Source of the DNA: Pseudomonadota bacterium
GTDB lineage: Bacteria > Desulfobacterota > Desulfobulbia > Desulfobulbales > Desulfocapsaceae
Direction: 5' to 3'
NCBI GenBank assembly: GCA_018821985.1
Contig: JAHJKP010000034.1
Coordinates: 1-64,000, forward strand
DNA: 64,000 nucleotides
Shown here: in pieces, positions 2,273 through 12,296 of the stretch
Layout: every line of letters starts with the position of its first letter
Position numbering within the stretch: position 1 is the stretch's first letter
Position numbers and translations under genes: made by a program
The notes under the pieces: model-generated
What the model was told of the DNA's origin: nothing
What the model saw: the letters and a program-made list of their open reading frames with translations, nothing else
Databases searched by the model: none

Positions 2273-3667
2273 TTACAACTGCGGGGCGACGATCCGCATC
2301 AGGTTTTCGGCCAGTCGCCGCATGATACCGGCCGGTTTCATTTCATGGTGTGAGTCCTGCAGGAGTTTCTCCATCCAGGCGTTTACCTCCGAGATGATGG
2401 GCACCGAATAGGCGAAACTGACCACTTCATAGTTCAACAACAGGCTGCGATTATCAATATTGACCGAGCCAAGCATCGCCCCTGTATCGTCAAAAAGGAT
2501 CGCCTTGGCATGGAGCATGGGGCCCTTGTACAGGGCGACTTCCACCCCGGCCTCCATCAATTCCCGCATGTAGCTGCTGCGCACCAGATCGGCCAGGAGG
2601 TGGTTGGATTCATAGGGGGTAATCAATTTAACATCGACGCCCTTGTGATGGGCGATAATCAGCGCCTCCTGCAGTGAGGTAACGGGAACGAAGTAGGGGG
2701 TGACGATCCAGATCCGTTTTTGGGCGGTATAGATGGCGCAGATCAGTGACTCGAAGAGGGCGTCTCTGGCGATGTCAGGCCCGGATGGCACTACCTGGAT
2801 GTAGGCGTCACCGTAGCCCAGGGGAACGGTGTCCAGAGCGATTGGCGTGGTGTGACCGCAGGCATAGGCCCAGTCTGAGGCGAATATCTCCAGATAGTGA
2901 AAGACCGCCGGTCCTTCGATGAGAAAGAGCAGATCGTTCCAGCGGCCGGGCTCAGGCGTTGGTCCCATGTACTCGGCGGAGAGATTCATGCCGCCGGTCA
3001 GGACAATACGGCGGTCAAAAAGATATATTTTTCGGTGGTTACGCAGGTTGATATAGTTTCGAAACGGCATCTGCAGGATGGGCATGAAAAATGAGATCAT
3101 GGCCCCGGCCTGACGCAGTTTTTTGAAGGGATGCTGGAAACAGTAGAGGGGGAATGATCCCAGTGAATCGATGAGAATCTTGATCTCCACCCCTTCTGTT
3201 GCTCTCTTGGTCAATGCCTTGAGGAGTTGGGCAGTTACCGCGTCGTTATTAAAGACATAGGTGCTGATAAAGATACTTTCCTTCGCCTTCTCTATCTCCT
3301 GCAGCAGAGCACTGTAGGCCTCAGTCCCGTCAGTATAAAGGGCAAAACGGTTTCCCTGAGTGCCTCCTGGTATCCCGTTGGCGCGTAGAACGCCGTCAAT
3401 GGGGTTGGCCTTTTCCAGGGGCAGATCCGTCACCGAGCGGAGGCTGAACATCGATTTTGTTTTGGAGCTGGTGCGCTTACGTGAACCGAGGATGAAGTAG
3501 AGCGGCACGGCAAGATGCGGCAGCAATATAATCGCCAGCAGCCAGGAGATCATGCTGGTTGGGGTTCGCCGCTGATACACCATGTGCAGCAGGGCGCTGA
3601 GAAAGAAGATCTCGCCTACTACGAGGAAGGAGTGGGAGAAGATCAGATGGAGCCATTCGATGTGCAT
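2273..3667 (-). CDS. cls: Cardiolipin synthase, phospholipase D superfamily
   Basis: Makes cardiolipin from phosphatidylglycerol at the inner membrane. Two phospholipase D HKD motifs are visible: HRKIYLFDRRIVLTGG in the middle and LHAKAILFDDTGAMLGS toward the C-terminus. The N-terminus has two hydrophobic segments (the second is MISWLLAIILLPHLAVPLYFILG), as in ClsA-type enzymes. The frame stays open upstream to 3874, but that extension is basic and unlike the family. The ATG at 3667 (MHIEWLHLIF) gives about 464 residues and the normal membrane N-terminus, so it is preferred. First gene of the minus-strand envelope group with waaA and kdsB. Confidence 0.93.
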   Translation of the reverse strand: MHIEWLHLIFSHSFLVVGEIFFLSALLHMVYQRRTPTSMISWLLAIILLPHLAVPLYFILGSRKRTSSKTKSMFSLRSVTDLPLEKANPIDGVLRANGIPGGTQGNRFALYTDGTEAYSALLQEIEKAKESIFISTYVFNNDAVTAQLLKALTKRATEGVEIKILIDSLGSFPLYCFQHPFKKLRQAGAMISFFMPILQMPFRNYINLRNHRKIYLFDRRIVLTGGMNLSAEYMGPTPEPGRWNDLLFLIEGPAVFHYLEIFASDWAYACGHTTPIALDTVPLGYGDAYIQVVPSGPDIARDALFESLICAIYTAQKRIWIVTPYFVPVTSLQEALIIAHHKGVDVKLITPYESNHLLADLVRSSYMRELMEAGVEVALYKGPMLHAKAILFDDTGAMLGSVNIDNRSLLLNYEVVSFAYSVPIISEVNAWMEKLLQDSHHEMKPAGIMRRLAENLMRIVAPQL

Positions 3668-6493
<2,826 letters not shown>

Positions 6494-6516
6494 TTACGCC
6501 CCCGGAGGGAACGCCA

Positions 6517-6573
6517 GAGCCTTACTTTCCGGAGGTGGCGGGTGGCGCCCACCTTTTCTGGAGAATAAGGCTC
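6517..6573. terminator. Imperfect long hairpin between icd and the nifV remnant
   Basis: GAGCCTTA at the left end pairs with TAAGGCTC at the right end, and the inner arms (TTTCCGGAGGTGG and CCACCTTTTCTGGAG) pair with a few mismatches, giving a stem of about 25 bases. It lies between two convergent genes, so a two-way terminator is plausible, but no long T run follows on either strand. It also overlaps the last recognisable nifV-like sequence. Confidence 0.45.
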
Positions 6574-7214
6574 ATAGGTGTTGGGATTGACGGTCAGGCC
6601 ATGCAGAAATCATTATGAGTATGGATCCCACTGGGAAGTCCTGACTGCTGCAGGAGCATTCGCACCATTTTTGTGATGGTGGCAGGAGAGCCGATACCCA
6701 CGGTGTCGGCCAGCCGCAGACGCTGCACGCCGCAATCGGCAGCGGTCTTGGCCAGTAAACAGAGGAACTCGGGATCGGCCCGGGTCGCGTCTTCAAGACC
6801 AAGGGATATAAAAGGAATACCAAGTGTCCTGGCTTGGGCCACTGCCTGGCGCAGGGTGCGCAGGACCCAGTTTCGGTCTTTTTGCAGCCGCTGGCTGATG
6901 TGCAGGTCTGAGGCCGGAATCGACAGAGACAGGACGTCTGGCCGGCAGCTTGCGGCAAAAGCGATATCGCCACTATGGCAGCGGCACCAGAGCCCCAGAC
7001 GTTGCCGTCCTTTGCTTGTCTTCCTGGCAAAGGTAAAAAGATCCTGAAGATGGCTGTTCTTTTCGGAAGCAATGCCCAGTTCAATCTCTTCCACTCCCAC
7101 CTGACAGAGCTGAGTAATAATCTCGTAGCGCAGTTCCTGGCTGAAGTGCACCCCCGGCGTCTGTTCGCCTTCCCGCAGGGTGGAGTCAATAATGCCGTGA
7201 AAGTTGGGCGTCAT
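6530..7214 (-). pseudogene. nifV: Homocitrate synthase NifV remnant, 5' half with internal deletion
   Basis: NifV condenses acetyl-CoA and 2-oxoglutarate to homocitrate, the organic part of the nitrogenase FeMo-cofactor. The first 206 codons read as a normal DRE-TIM metallolyase N-terminus: IIDSTLREGEQTPGV, EELELGIA-type sequence (here EEIELGIA), and HTHNDFCMA, where the family has HTHNDFGMA. A TGA stop follows at once. In another frame directly after it the DNA encodes GLTVNPNTYEPYSPEKVG, which resembles the later NifV segment ending YEPFAPE-VG, so roughly 100 codons appear deleted at the junction near 6590. The rest of the gene (normally about 380 codons) is missing. The ATG has a good ribosome-binding site (AGAGG) and lies 11 bases after the unknown gene upstream, in the old nif operon. 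Confidence 0.85.
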
Positions 7215-7225
7215 GGCAGACCTCT

Positions 7226-8536
7226 TTAGTTTCCTTCGATCTGTTTGCGGAACAAATTGATCTGGGCGGTGCGAATCTCATCCATCTTCAGTCGATAAAT
7301 ATCACCGGGAAAAAGGAAATCCGCCACCCCGGTGTCGAAGATCCGCTTGACCTCATATTCGTCATGGGCGACATCCCGCTGGTAGATATAGTTGAGATAG
7401 GAGCGGTTGGTGTGGATGATGAATTCCACGCGGATGCCCCCCAGTCTGGCAAAGAATTTCAACATCGGGGTCTGGTTGGAACTGCCCATGGCCGTACTCC
7501 CGTACTGGCCACCGGTGAGGGTGTCGGAGATATCCTCGAGCGTCATGAGTGATCCTGCCTCTACCGCGCTGCGGGTCAGGTGGCGGATGAAGCATTTAAC
7601 GTCACCCACCGAGTTGAGCACCGCCATCAGGCCCAGCTCATCATCAACGGCCACTGCTGGATTTTTTTCATTTTTACGCAACAGCTTCAGGACCTTGGCT
7701 GCAGGTGGTTTTTTCCTGATGGTGACGTAAATCGGCACCTCTCTCTCCTGGCTGCGAAAACGGCGGCGCTTGATCAGGGTCAGTTTCTCGCCGGATGTGG
7801 GTGTCAGCGCTCGGGCCTGCTCTTCAGAAAGGACAGTTACTTCCTGGCAACTGAAGTCGTCGGGGTGGTGGTGGCTGTGCAGGTACTTGATCTCCAGCTC
7901 ACCGATCTTGAGACTGGGGCTCCAGACATGGGCATTCAAGAAGCGAAGAAAATTGGAAAACTTGGTCTCGATATCGGTCTCCCGTTCCCGCTGATCAATG
8001 GAGCCGGCAAGATTCATGAGTACCAGCTTGCGCTTGGCCTCAAAGCGGGCCTTGCGGTGAAATCGCTCGTCAAAGATGATGAGCAATAGATCCACCGGAT
8101 CATGAGTGGTTTCGATCTCATTGGTGGTCTCAATATGCGAGCGATAGGGGGCCAGCACCTTTGCCCGCAGGGAGTTGACCACGTCATCGGCTGTGCGGGC
8201 ATAGTCGTACAGGTAACGGCCAATGTCATGGCTGGCACCGTCCAGGCCGAACATGTTTCCTAAAAGGGTACGGGAGCGTTCCGCAGTTTTTTGGCGTAGT
8301 GTACGGTCATGGATCAGGATCAGGATCTCATCAAAGTTGCTGATCCCCAGAAAGTCGAAGATCTGACAACGAACGGCGCGATATTTGGTCTTCAGCAGTT
8401 GATCTCCTTGCAGGTTACGCACCCAGTTTTTGGCCTCTTTGGAAAAGGGATGGGCAAAGGGTGGTAATTCGTTTACAGCAAAGGGGCCATCCTGCAGCAT
8501 GGATGTAAAGATGGATTTTTGATTCAGGAGATTCAT
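7226..8536 (-). CDS. Unknown protein, intact gene within the decayed nif operon
   Basis: I do not recognise this 436-residue protein. It is uninterrupted, unlike the nif genes on both sides, and the nifV remnant starts 11 bases after its stop, so it belonged to the nif transcription unit. The ATG at 8536 is preferred over an upstream TTG at 8578 because an AGGA lies about nine bases ahead. It has no signal peptide or membrane segment. The first 150 residues are helical and charged. The last third (about 294-436: VDDELGLMAVLNS, then YGSTAMGSS, GIRVEFIIHTNRSYLNY and AHDEYEVKR) has an order of acidic strand, glycine/serine turn and E-x-I-x-T strand loosely like the RelA/SpoT nucleotidyltransferase fold. 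That comparison is by eye only and is weak. Confidence 0.8.
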   Translation of the reverse strand: MNLLNQKSIFTSMLQDGPFAVNELPPFAHPFSKEAKNWVRNLQGDQLLKTKYRAVRCQIFDFLGISNFDEILILIHDRTLRQKTAERSRTLLGNMFGLDGASHDIGRYLYDYARTADDVVNSLRAKVLAPYRSHIETTNEIETTHDPVDLLLIIFDERFHRKARFEAKRKLVLMNLAGSIDQRERETDIETKFSNFLRFLNAHVWSPSLKIGELEIKYLHSHHHPDDFSCQEVTVLSEEQARALTPTSGEKLTLIKRRRFRSQEREVPIYVTIRKKPPAAKVLKLLRKNEKNPAVAVDDELGLMAVLNSVGDVKCFIRHLTRSAVEAGSLMTLEDISDTLTGGQYGSTAMGSSNQTPMLKFFARLGGIRVEFIIHTNRSYLNYIYQRDVAHDEYEVKRIFDTGVADFLFPGDIYRLKMDEIRTAQINLFRKQIEGN

Positions 8537-8593
8537 GGTTGTTATCCTGTTCTTTTCAATATCTTGAAATGAGTTCAATCGGTTACATGGCCT

Positions 8594-9553
8594 CTATGTT
8601 TTATTATTCCATGGGCTCAGGCTAAATTCAGGCCTGTCGAGCTTGAATTTTTTGATCCGATAGCCAATCTGGCGCTGGGTCAGACCCAGTTCCCGGGCTG
8701 CACGGGCCTGGACCCAGCCATTTCTCATCAGGGCGGCCTTGATCTCGGCCAGTTCCAGCTCTCCCAGAGAATGGAGGGCTGCCGGATACGCTGGAGTCAA
8801 GACCATGATCAGTGGGGGCTATCCTTGCAGAGGAAGTAGGAGTTCTATCCTGAGGCAAGGTTCTCATCATCTCTTCGGGAAGATCACTTTCATAAATAAT
8901 ACTCTTGTCGCTCAGAATAACCAAGCGTTCAATGAGATTTTGCAGTTCCCGCACATTTCCCGGCCAGTTGTAGTCCATCACGAAATCGAGGACCTCTTGG
9001 GATAGCTCCACCTCCATGCCATTTCGTTCATTGCTGGCGCGCAGGAAGTGGTTGAGCAGGATCGGGATGTCGCTCTTGCGTTCCCGTAAGGGGGGAAGAT
9101 GAGAGGCAGCACATTTAAGCGATAGTAGAGGTCGTTACGAAAGGTACCGTTGGCCACGGCATCGCCAAGGTTTACATTTGTGGCGGCAATGATGCGCACA
9201 TCGACCTCCAGTGTCCTGGCGCCGATATGATCGAGGAACAGGGGCTCGCTGCTGATGTCCGGGACGATGCAGGGCGATCCGGTCTGAAATATCTGACCGC
9301 AGATCCCCTCGGAGAGCCCGTAAATCCCCCACTGTTCCTCTTCAATGGTCAGGCCGTAGGATGCCTTTATCTCCAGTCTCTGTCTGTGGGGGTCAAGAAG
9401 AACCAGGGTGGCCCGGTCCATGCGCAGGATCTCGTGAAGGACTTGAAAGACTCTGGTCAGGGCGGTGTCGAGATGTACGGCCTCGCCGATGAGCTGGCAT
9501 ATCTCGGAAAGGGGATCAATCGCAACCAGTTCCCGTCCCATGGCAGTGTCCAC
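8594..9553 (-). pseudogene. nifA: Nif-specific regulator NifA, internally deleted and frameshifted
   Basis: NifA is the sigma-54 activator of nif operons. The N-terminal GAF domain (about residues 10-110, LCQLIGEAVHLDTALTRVF-like helices through EGICGQIFQTGSPCIVPDI) is intact. The sequence then jumps in frame from LFLDHIGAR to TLEVDVRIIAATN near 9210. This removes the Walker A, GAFTGA and Walker B parts of the AAA+ domain. Near 9099, one missing base shifts the frame: restoring it turns the reading into LPLHLPPLRERKSDIP. The next part (DYNWPGNVRELQNLIERL) reads in a second frame, and a further shift near 8815-8850 leads to the C-terminal Fis-type helix-turn-helix (AARELGLTQRQIGYRIKKF). It cannot contact or activate RNA polymerase as it stands. 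Confidence 0.92.
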
Positions 9554-9615
9554 TGCCGCAACTCTTTTTCTCCCGCCGTTTCAGTTTGGACAATCCCTCG
9601 CCACTATAAATCGCC

Positions 9616-10451
9616 TTAAGTGCGTATTTCACTGAATCCTGACATGGTAGTAATCGGTTCTATCCCATGCTTTTGCAGGATCTCGCGGGGAGTCTCACCC
9701 ATATCGCTGACCAGTACAGCCTGGCAGTCTTTCCATTAAGGGTTCGGCCAAATTCGATGGTGGCGCTGGCCCGACCCATAGTGGCGATGGAAGCCAGAGG
9801 GGTGCCGCCGGGCTGAATCTTGTCATACTTACTGGTGGCCCGACCCATGGTGTCAGAGAGATCTGGTAAAATCGTGGCGTCCAGTCCAAAATCATCTATT
9901 ACTTCAGAAAAATAACGCTTGTCGGCAGGTGAGATAAATCCCGGCAACAGGTTGATCTTCTCTTGAACCGCCTCACGACCTTTGGCCAGTTGCTCCACCA
10001 CCGCAGTTACCGCGGCATGGAATCCCTTCATGTGGGTGCCGTTATAACTGGGGGTTGCGACCCGAACCATGATCGGCATGGTGCCCACGGTTTCCCGTTG
10101 AAACTCATGGAGGTACCTGCCCACATCGTTACCAATGGTCTCAGTCATACAGGTGGTGGCAATGCCGATGAGCTTTGGCTGATACTTCTGGGTTACATTG
10201 ACCAGACCCATTTTCAGGTTGGGGCCGCCACCATAGATGGCATTCTTCTCAGAGAGTGAGGAGGAGGCAATATCAATGGGTTCATTATAGTGGCCGATAA
10301 TATAGCGCCGCATATAGGTGGCGCAGCCCTGCGATCCGTGCAGATAAGGGACAGCGCCCTCGATCCCCTTGAAGGCCAGACAGGCCCCAAGCGGGGTGCA
10401 GAGCTTACAGGCGTTGGTGGTGGAGATATAATTGGGAGGATTCTTTGACAT
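9616..10451 (-). pseudogene. nifN: NifN N-terminal half fused by deletion to a NifB/NifX-type tail
   Basis: NifN, with NifE, forms the scaffold on which FeMo-cofactor is matured. The first 245 or so codons are good NifN: TTNACKLCTPLGACLAFKGI, LHGSQGCATYMRRYI, SSSLSEKNAIYGGG. After EFGRTLNG the frame becomes nonsense, and in the neighbouring frame the DNA encodes DCQAVLVSDMGETPREILQK, then HGIEPITTMSG. That matches the C-terminal dinitrogenase iron-molybdenum cofactor domain found in NifB and NifX, not NifN. The junction lies near 9728-9745, followed by a stop at 9616. So a deletion removed the end of nifN and at least most of a nifB or nifX gene, or of a nifN-B fusion as known in Clostridium pasteurianum. 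A ribosome-binding site (AAGGAAGAG) precedes the ATG. Confidence 0.88.
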
Positions 10452-10494: not shown

Positions 10495-11866
10495 TTATCC
10501 GTTGATAATGGTCTTGCTGGTTTCTGTCCCAAGATCCTTGGCTTTGGTACGCATCGCAAAGCGCCAGACCGGACTCATCACCGAGGAATAGACCTCTTCA
10601 GCAAAGTTGAGCATCCCCTGAAAACCGGCCAGGGCCTCTTTGCGTTCATGGGTATGATCACAGAAGCCCACCCCCAGTTTGTAGGCAATGGGCCGCTCCT
10701 TGACTCCGCCCACCAGGATATCCACCTCTTTTTCCTCAAGAAAGGAGGTGAGCTCCAAGGGATTCGTGTCATCGACAATGATCGTGCCGGGATCGGTAAT
10801 CTCGGCCAGTTCTCGATATTCCTGTTCGGTGCCAGTCTGGGAACCCACCATTACCACCTGCATATCCAGAAGACGAAAGGCCTTGACCAGAGAAAAGGCC
10901 TTGAATGAGCCACCGACATAAATGGCCGCTTTTTTACCGGCCAGGGCCTCTCTGTACTTCTGCAACTGCGGTACCACCCGGGCCAGTTCTTCTTTGACCA
11001 GTTTACTGGTCCTCTCCAGCATCTCCTGGTCACCAAAATGGTCAGCCACGTCATAGAGAGACTGGGCCATATCCTCAATCCCGAAATAGGAGACGCGGAT
11101 GGAGGGGATTTCGTATCGTTCTTCCATTATCTTGGCCAGATCCATGGTGGAACCGGAACACTGCACCACGTTCAGTGCCGCACCGTGCGCCCGCGCAAGA
11201 TCAGCAATCCTGCCGTCGCCGGTAATATTGGCCACCAACTGTACCCCCATTCGTTCAAAGTATTCGCGGATCATCCAGATCTTGCCCGCCAGATTAAAGT
11301 CCCTTAAAATATTGATGGAATAAGGGGAGATGCCGGCGGTATCGATCCTGGCCATGGCATTGCAGGCGGCCGTATATCCGGCCCGCTTGTTGCCCTTGAA
11401 TCCTTCGGACTGCACCGGAATTACCGGGATTCATTTCTCGGCCTCCACCCGCCTACAGACCGCCTCCAGATCGTCGCCGATGATGCCGACAATACAGGTG
11501 GAGTAGACTAAGACGCCTTTAGGACTGTGACGGTCAATGAGCTCAATCAGGGCACGATATAGTTTTTCCTCACCGCCAAAGATCACGTCGCGTTCCTGGA
11601 GGTCGGTGGAAAAGGAGAGCCGATGCAGCTCCGGGCCCGAGGAAAGGGCGCCGCGGATATCCCAGGTATAGACCGCGCAGCCGATGGGCCCATGTACCAG
11701 ATGCAGGGCATCGGCGATGGGGTAGAGCACTACCCGTGATCCGCAGAAGACACAGGCCCGCTGGTTCACCGCTCCGGCCTGACTGTCTTTATTTGCACAC
11801 CAGAGTAAAGGGTTGTTCACCGGTGCGGTGAATCTGTTCCTGTCTATCTTCAAGTAACGCTTCCAT
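10495..11866 (-). pseudogene. nifE: FeMo-cofactor scaffold NifE, full length but broken by two small lesions
   Basis: NifE pairs with NifN as the FeMo-cofactor assembly scaffold. The true start is the ATG at 11866 behind a strong GAAGGAG site, giving MEALLEDRQEQIHRTGEQPF, a standard NifE N-terminus. One extra base near 11791 (CAAA-T-AAAGAC) shifts the frame; removing it restores VCKKDSQAGAVNQRACVFCG. A second lesion is an in-frame TGA at 11431-11433 within EAEK-stop-IPVIPVQSEGF, most simply a former GGA glycine codon. The rest runs to the normal C-terminus. The span of 1372 bases is 457 codons plus one, so apart from these two changes the gene is complete. First gene of the remaining nif operon; nifD and nifK, usually just upstream, are absent. 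Confidence 0.93.
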
Positions 11867-12296
11867 GCCGCTTCTCCTTCCTGATACCAAGGGTGTTTAT
11901 GGACTTTCTTTAAACAGAGAAAAGCAAGAAGGATGCCAGTAGGAAAATGTCGCCTATTGATTTATGATTACAGATGGTTATGCATAGAAACAGGTCGAGT
12001 GGGGTAAGAGGAAAAGAGGTACTGAAAATGGAGAAAAGCTTACAAAATGAAAGGAATAGTTCTTTATTGTTGTAAACAATGAAAGGTCAGATCCCTCGGG
12101 ATCTCTTTTAAAAAGAGTAGTTGTGGATCGACAGGATCACCGCGAACAGGAAAATTGTGAAGATGGGGTTGGAGAGTCTGCTGTATAGTTAGCAATAAAT
12201 TTTTTTGAAAAACGAGGAAAAAGGTGTAACCTAACATAGAAGAACAGCGAGTTGTAAAGTTAACAGGGCAAAGAAAATCCGTCGCAACGGAATCAA

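Follow-up and report, generated by a model that had tools for sequence, protein, structure and literature searches.

The small alarmone synthetases RelP (SAS2) and RelQ (SAS1) and the long RSH proteins Rel, RelA and SpoT are among the closest described systems to the protein analysed here; enzymes of this kind produce (p)ppGpp, a signal of starvation. In RelP, R78 and R112 stack the adenine of ATP, K80, K88, R91 and S84 contact the phosphates, D107 and E174 are the Mg ligands, and the G-loop residue Y151 binds guanosine (PMC5794853). FaRel2 uses R64, K66, S70, K74, R77, D90, G93, R95 and Q147 (PMC11782079). The window, i.e. the whole stretch of 64,000 nucleotides that was analysed, contains at 7226–8536 on the minus strand an open reading frame that starts with ATG at 8536 and comprises 436 codons and a stop codon without any lesion; an alternative TTG start is possible 14 codons upstream. 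All features of the gene and of the nif operon given below are on this strand.

The protein was modelled with AlphaFold2 from 65 homologues (pLDDT 87.4, pTM 0.86). The 26 best hits of a Foldseek search against the PDB were all alarmone synthetases (RelP, RelQ, SpoT, RelSeq, CapRel, Rel, and RelA; best E 6e-4, probability 1.00), and the RelA/SpoT-type structural match covers residues ~185–436. For residues 178–436, a second aligner, VIA, scored Rel at a Z of 9.2 and RelP at 8.3, compared with about 6 for polymerase-X folds. Because Z values of 7–8 are common for unrelated models, the case for the fold rests on the consistent hit list and the active-site residues. The order of strands and helices in the model matches the descriptions of RelP and FaRel2. 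As expected, the conserved active-site residues fall where the first strand of the core ends (R274), in the helix after it, where the second strand starts (D299), and in the last strand (E371). Judging from the model, a RelA/SpoT-type synthetase fold is very probable, and the guess of such a fold in the initial annotation was borne out by structure prediction and fold search.

The N-terminal domain (residues 1–204, 7925–8536) is all-helical and contains an invariant basic segment, KARFEA(K/R)RKL.LM.LA. When folded alone, it was predicted with a pLDDT of 79; among solved structures, Foldseek returned nothing at an E value under 3 for the isolated domain, and the best VIA Z was 2.6. The C-terminal part (residues 205–436, 7229–7924) carries an insertion rich in strands and about 50 residues long (about 210–262) just before the synthetase-like core, which starts at residue 265. 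RelP and RelQ, the best structural hits, share the core strand order, whereas the insertion and the 200-residue helical domain are extra features of the gene product, and the identity to them is about 17%. The overall order is similar to that of the long RSH proteins, in which a helical N-terminal part also precedes the synthetase domain. Unlike these, the gene product has no TGS/ACT regulatory part, and no similarity to HD hydrolases was detected in its N-terminal domain (no Pfam HD hit).

The donor-triphosphate signature R274-x-K276-x7-K284-x2-R287 (7676–7717) corresponds to R78/K80/K88/R91 of RelP and R64/K66/K74/R77 of FaRel2, and the spacing R-x-K-x7-K-x2-R is identical in RelP and RelQ. 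D298-D299-E-L-G302 (7631–7645) contains the Asp at the Mg position (RelP D107, FaRel2 D90) and a Gly equivalent to FaRel2 G93, and the strand IRVEFIIHT (7409–7435) carries E371 at the position of RelP E174. The residue register, including the assignment of D299 and E371 as Mg ligands, was set by secondary-structure position in the model. R274, K276, K284, R287, D299, G302, and E371 are invariant in 65 of 65 sequences. When conserved columns were shuffled, the pattern R-x-K-x7-K-x2-R-x(9-17)-D arose in 6 of 200,000 trials and in none with the Gly included; with the shuffling restricted to residues 240–310, the numbers were 43 and 2 of 200,000, respectively. The near-invariant HDEYEVKR (residues 391–398, 7343–7366) lies on the helix after the last strand, where the RelA/SpoT counterpart is AAHWxYK.

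Other positions depart from RelP and RelQ. The donor-site Ser is replaced by A280, while the R, K, K, and R of the signature are invariant. The second adenine-stacking Arg, located five residues after the Asp (RelP R112, FaRel2 R95), is replaced by Met in 64 of 65 sequences (M304), and I373 takes the place of the Gln two residues after the Glu. The loop at the position of the G-loop (residues 339–358, 7463–7522) is unusual, being variable in sequence and of low confidence in the model; its Y345, a candidate for the G-loop Tyr that stacks on the base of the acceptor, is Tyr in 52 and His in 11 of the 65 sequences. The peptides quoted in the initial annotation are all present in the protein, and VEFIIHT and AHDEYE are near-invariant among the homologues, as is DDELGL. 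YGSTAMGSS falls in a variable loop, outside the conserved part, and was dropped as a family motif.

Searches at the sequence level gave a different outcome from the fold search. The protein has no match in Pfam, NCBIfam, PHROGs, PADLOC or PDB sequences; no Pfam family was found up to an E value of 10, and RelA_SpoT (PF04607) was absent from the hits of all 65 homologues. Profile-profile comparison with RSH sequences gave a collinear register over residues 267–377, which we discount as evidence of homology because the hhalign score against the RSH alignment was reached by 44 of 200 column shuffles. Homology to RelA/SpoT from sequence alone is therefore not significant, and the profile search suggested in the initial annotation came out negative. 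The protein thus follows the plan of RSH synthetases, yet fails the sequence-model test of the family and is without some of its residues. RelA/SpoT enzymes are found through sequence models, and this family, which is near-core in a major sulfur-cycling group, escapes all of them. No described family of this kind was found in the limited collection of literature that was searched.

The replaced residues A280, M304, and I373 and the variable loop would also fit a catalytically dead RelA/SpoT-fold protein that serves as a nucleotide sensor (for ppGpp or ATP, for example) or as a protein-docking regulator and whose basic residues only bind phosphates. However, D299, E371, and the four donor-phosphate basic residues are retained throughout the family, and a dead enzyme need not keep them. 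We regard this explanation as possible but rather unlikely, and catalytic activity of the gene product, as far as the model can indicate, as somewhat probable. The two-domain gene product, a new helical N-terminal domain followed by a predicted synthetase fold of the RelA/SpoT type, is best read as an active pyrophosphokinase-like enzyme. The NTP donor would be bound through R274, K276, K284, and R287 and Mg through D299 and E371, and the variable loop would hold the acceptor that receives pyrophosphate (or a nucleotidyl group). Given M304, I373, A280, and the unusual loop, the donor or the acceptor may differ from the classical ATP and GTP. The probable task of the N-terminal domain is to sense or dock a regulator.

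The gene neighbourhood points to nitrogen metabolism. Nitrogen genes are nearby in 32 of the 76 named loci. A class-I glutamine amidotransferase gene is located directly upstream in the same direction in 10 loci (spaced by -4 to 135 bp), and genes for PII and an ammonium transporter (amt) precede it in several. The amidotransferase linkage is found on both sides of the deep split of the tree and is therefore old. Most members of the genus have the gene between nifA and nifV, and nifV is directly downstream in the same direction in 14 loci, including three outside the genus (L052, L063, and L108). Outside the genus, a hand count placed the gene within 15 kb of nif in 9 of about 43 nif-bearing genomes, where about one was expected; the rough p value of 5e-7 treats the genomes as independent and is hence optimistic. 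Many holders lack nif in searches for nifE and nifH, so the occurrence of the gene is not restricted to nif-bearing genomes. In a large clade comprising Desulforhopalus, Desulfofustis and relatives, and in Psychromonas, it is apart from nitrogen genes and sometimes beside genes for histidine kinases or HD-type response regulators. The initial annotation had suggested that a nif operon might encode a nucleotide-signalling protein and had proposed a survey of homologues in such operons; the recurrence of the nif/PII/amt neighbourhood in several families supports this in part, but many holders are free of nif and the signalling activity is putative. As a separate observation, the same HD-type response regulator and large sensor protein are encoded near the gene at L087, L182, L186, L181, L183, and L102, which belong to Psychromonas and one Desulfobulbales genome; this suggests a co-transferred or shared partner.

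The recurring context of glutamine amidotransferase, PII, ammonium transporter, and nif genes suggests that the output of the protein follows nitrogen status, a role to which we give about even chances. The same neighbours, together with a fold of the nucleotidyltransferase class, would suit a GlnD-like nucleotidyltransferase acting on PII or another nitrogen protein. GlnD, the PII uridylyltransferase, shares this fold class and the nitrogen context, but its domain make-up differs, the closest fold is a synthetase and not GlnD, and a canonical GlnD is already present in the same genome and most relatives. Such a modifier is therefore improbable, and a replacement of GlnD was rejected on the same ground. 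With moderate confidence, we favour a divergent signalling enzyme of pyrophosphokinase type with an ancestral role in nitrogen status that is not tied to nitrogenase. A bolder version is a tentative and unlikely suggestion: a new class of enzyme with the RelA/SpoT fold, a regulatory domain of its own and changed sites for base binding, which would use a new acceptor or make a signal other than (p)ppGpp in response to glutamine/ammonium status, and would control ammonium uptake and nitrogen fixation in Desulfobulbales. If the enzyme is active, it would extend alarmone signalling by a branch linked to nitrogen, in organisms whose nitrogen regulation is little studied.

The fate of the nif operon in the window bears on the tie to nitrogenase. 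Two intact syntenic loci of the same genus (L031 and L033) have the order nifE-nifN-nifB-nifA-gene-nifV, with icd coming next on the opposite strand. The window has the same order of nif genes, but in comparison with these loci every one of them is damaged by frameshifts, stops or large deletions. The nifE pseudogene (10498–11890) has a frameshift and a TGA. Only the first 244 codons of nifN remain (9723–10451; residues 245–451 deleted), and nifB is reduced to its 3' end (9522–9729; residues 1–354 deleted and a frameshift). The nifA remnant (8597–9562) lacks residues 140–351 and is frameshifted, and the nifV remnant (6529–7214), 11 bp after the gene, lacks residues 207–292 and has a frameshift. 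No nifH, nifD or nifK was found elsewhere in the genome of the window. In agreement with the initial annotation, the gene itself is intact amid these broken neighbours, and it aligns end to end with the L031 and L033 loci at 96% identity. An exact match to the consensus of a sigma-54 type -24/-12 site is present upstream of nifE in the window (11923–11938) and at the corresponding place in L031 and L033, and is a possible promoter of the operon. The gene's own promoter, which the initial annotation had considered, was not found: a scan of its strand at 6500–9300 gave no sigma-70 site and was no better than shuffles.

Selection was measured by counting the changes unique to the genome of the window relative to two live relatives. 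The gene has 37 synonymous and 9 nonsynonymous unique changes, corresponding to a dN/dS (w) of 0.073 compared with 0.10 between the live relatives, and thus is under purifying selection that does not differ between dead and live nif contexts. The pairwise w across the genus is 0.07–0.13. For nifE, nifN, and nifB, the w values in the window genome are 0.16, 0.19, and 0.46, compared with 0.046, 0.072, and 0.063 between the live relatives (Fisher p 6e-5 for dead versus live changes), and the difference between the gene and these three in the window genome has a p value of 0.04. In the genome of one relative (G015, locus L034), the nif genes are absent, yet the gene has kept its place in the locus, 93% identical and with a w of about 0.12, flanked by a universal-stress-protein gene and by a cls remnant, kdtA, and kdsB. 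The low w on the window branch and the survival in this nif-less genome indicate that retention was neither by chance nor for nitrogenase. Of the two options raised in the initial annotation, chance is thus discarded and a function outside nitrogenase is upheld. The locus amounts to a natural experiment in which the gene is still under selection once nif is lost. A cardiolipin-synthase-like gene in the window (2273–3874) has a window-branch w of 0.215 versus 0.096 in relatives and more unique changes than its neighbours.

An accessory gene of nif, tied to nitrogenase and intact only because the decay is recent, would agree with the position that most of the genus shows, between nifA and nifV, and with the relaxed nif remnants, whose w is still well below 1, as expected for recent decay. 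This explanation was already disfavoured by a window-branch w equal to that in live relatives, and retention of the gene in many nif-less genomes, including G015 at the same locus, makes it quite improbable. The data support selection on the gene that is independent of nitrogenase, and the putative signalling enzyme would have survived the decay of nif because it is not part of nitrogenase.

The gene is near-core in Desulfobulbales, the order in which the named loci place it. It is present in 76 of 97 relatives and in 65 of the order's 73 good-quality genomes, with identities of 53–96%, and the full-length matches in relatives are free of stops. Matches in an even sample of the phylum were confined to the same order. 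Outside it, the Psychromonas family has intact copies in 11 of 24 genomes and a remnant in one, and the gene was found in 1 of 368 other sampled genomes of the class to which this family belongs. Psychromonas aquimarina had no nifH above the cut-off. In a FastTree tree, the Psychromonas clade is nested inside the Desulfobulbales sequences, which suggests transfer. A mobile-element origin was rejected, as no plasmid, phage or viral-contig relatives of the gene were found. Two extra damaged copies lie about 8–10 kb from the intact copy in one genome (G014; L188:10565-12459); one has a frameshift/deletion between residues 262 and 298, and the other is truncated.

A toxSAS/CapRel-like toxin or defence synthetase, which would modify tRNA or make (p)ppApp, would have the same fold, and CapRel is among the structural hits, but it is very improbable for a mostly single-copy, near-core gene under strong purifying selection across the whole order, with no PADLOC, plasmid or phage match, no linked antitoxin seen, and no small partner that recurs among the neighbouring products of 90 aa or more. 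The genome of the window also encodes a long RSH of RelA type (HD signature HGVLKE), a long RSH of SpoT type (HDTVED), and a short RelA_SpoT-domain protein of 327 aa (L157); the new protein is therefore additional to the standard stringent-response set. The short gene lies close to another long ORF, and a defence or toxin-antitoxin context is possible for it. At L159 and L161, the HD signature of the RelA type is altered (HGVLKE), while the SpoT type has an intact HD signature and a diverged synthetase; this deltaproteobacterial lineage thus has a split resembling that of RelA and SpoT. A 9-kb contig of the same assembly (contig C5 of G000), probably a contaminant, carries a Rel gene of high GC (68%) and actinobacterial appearance (L118/L160).
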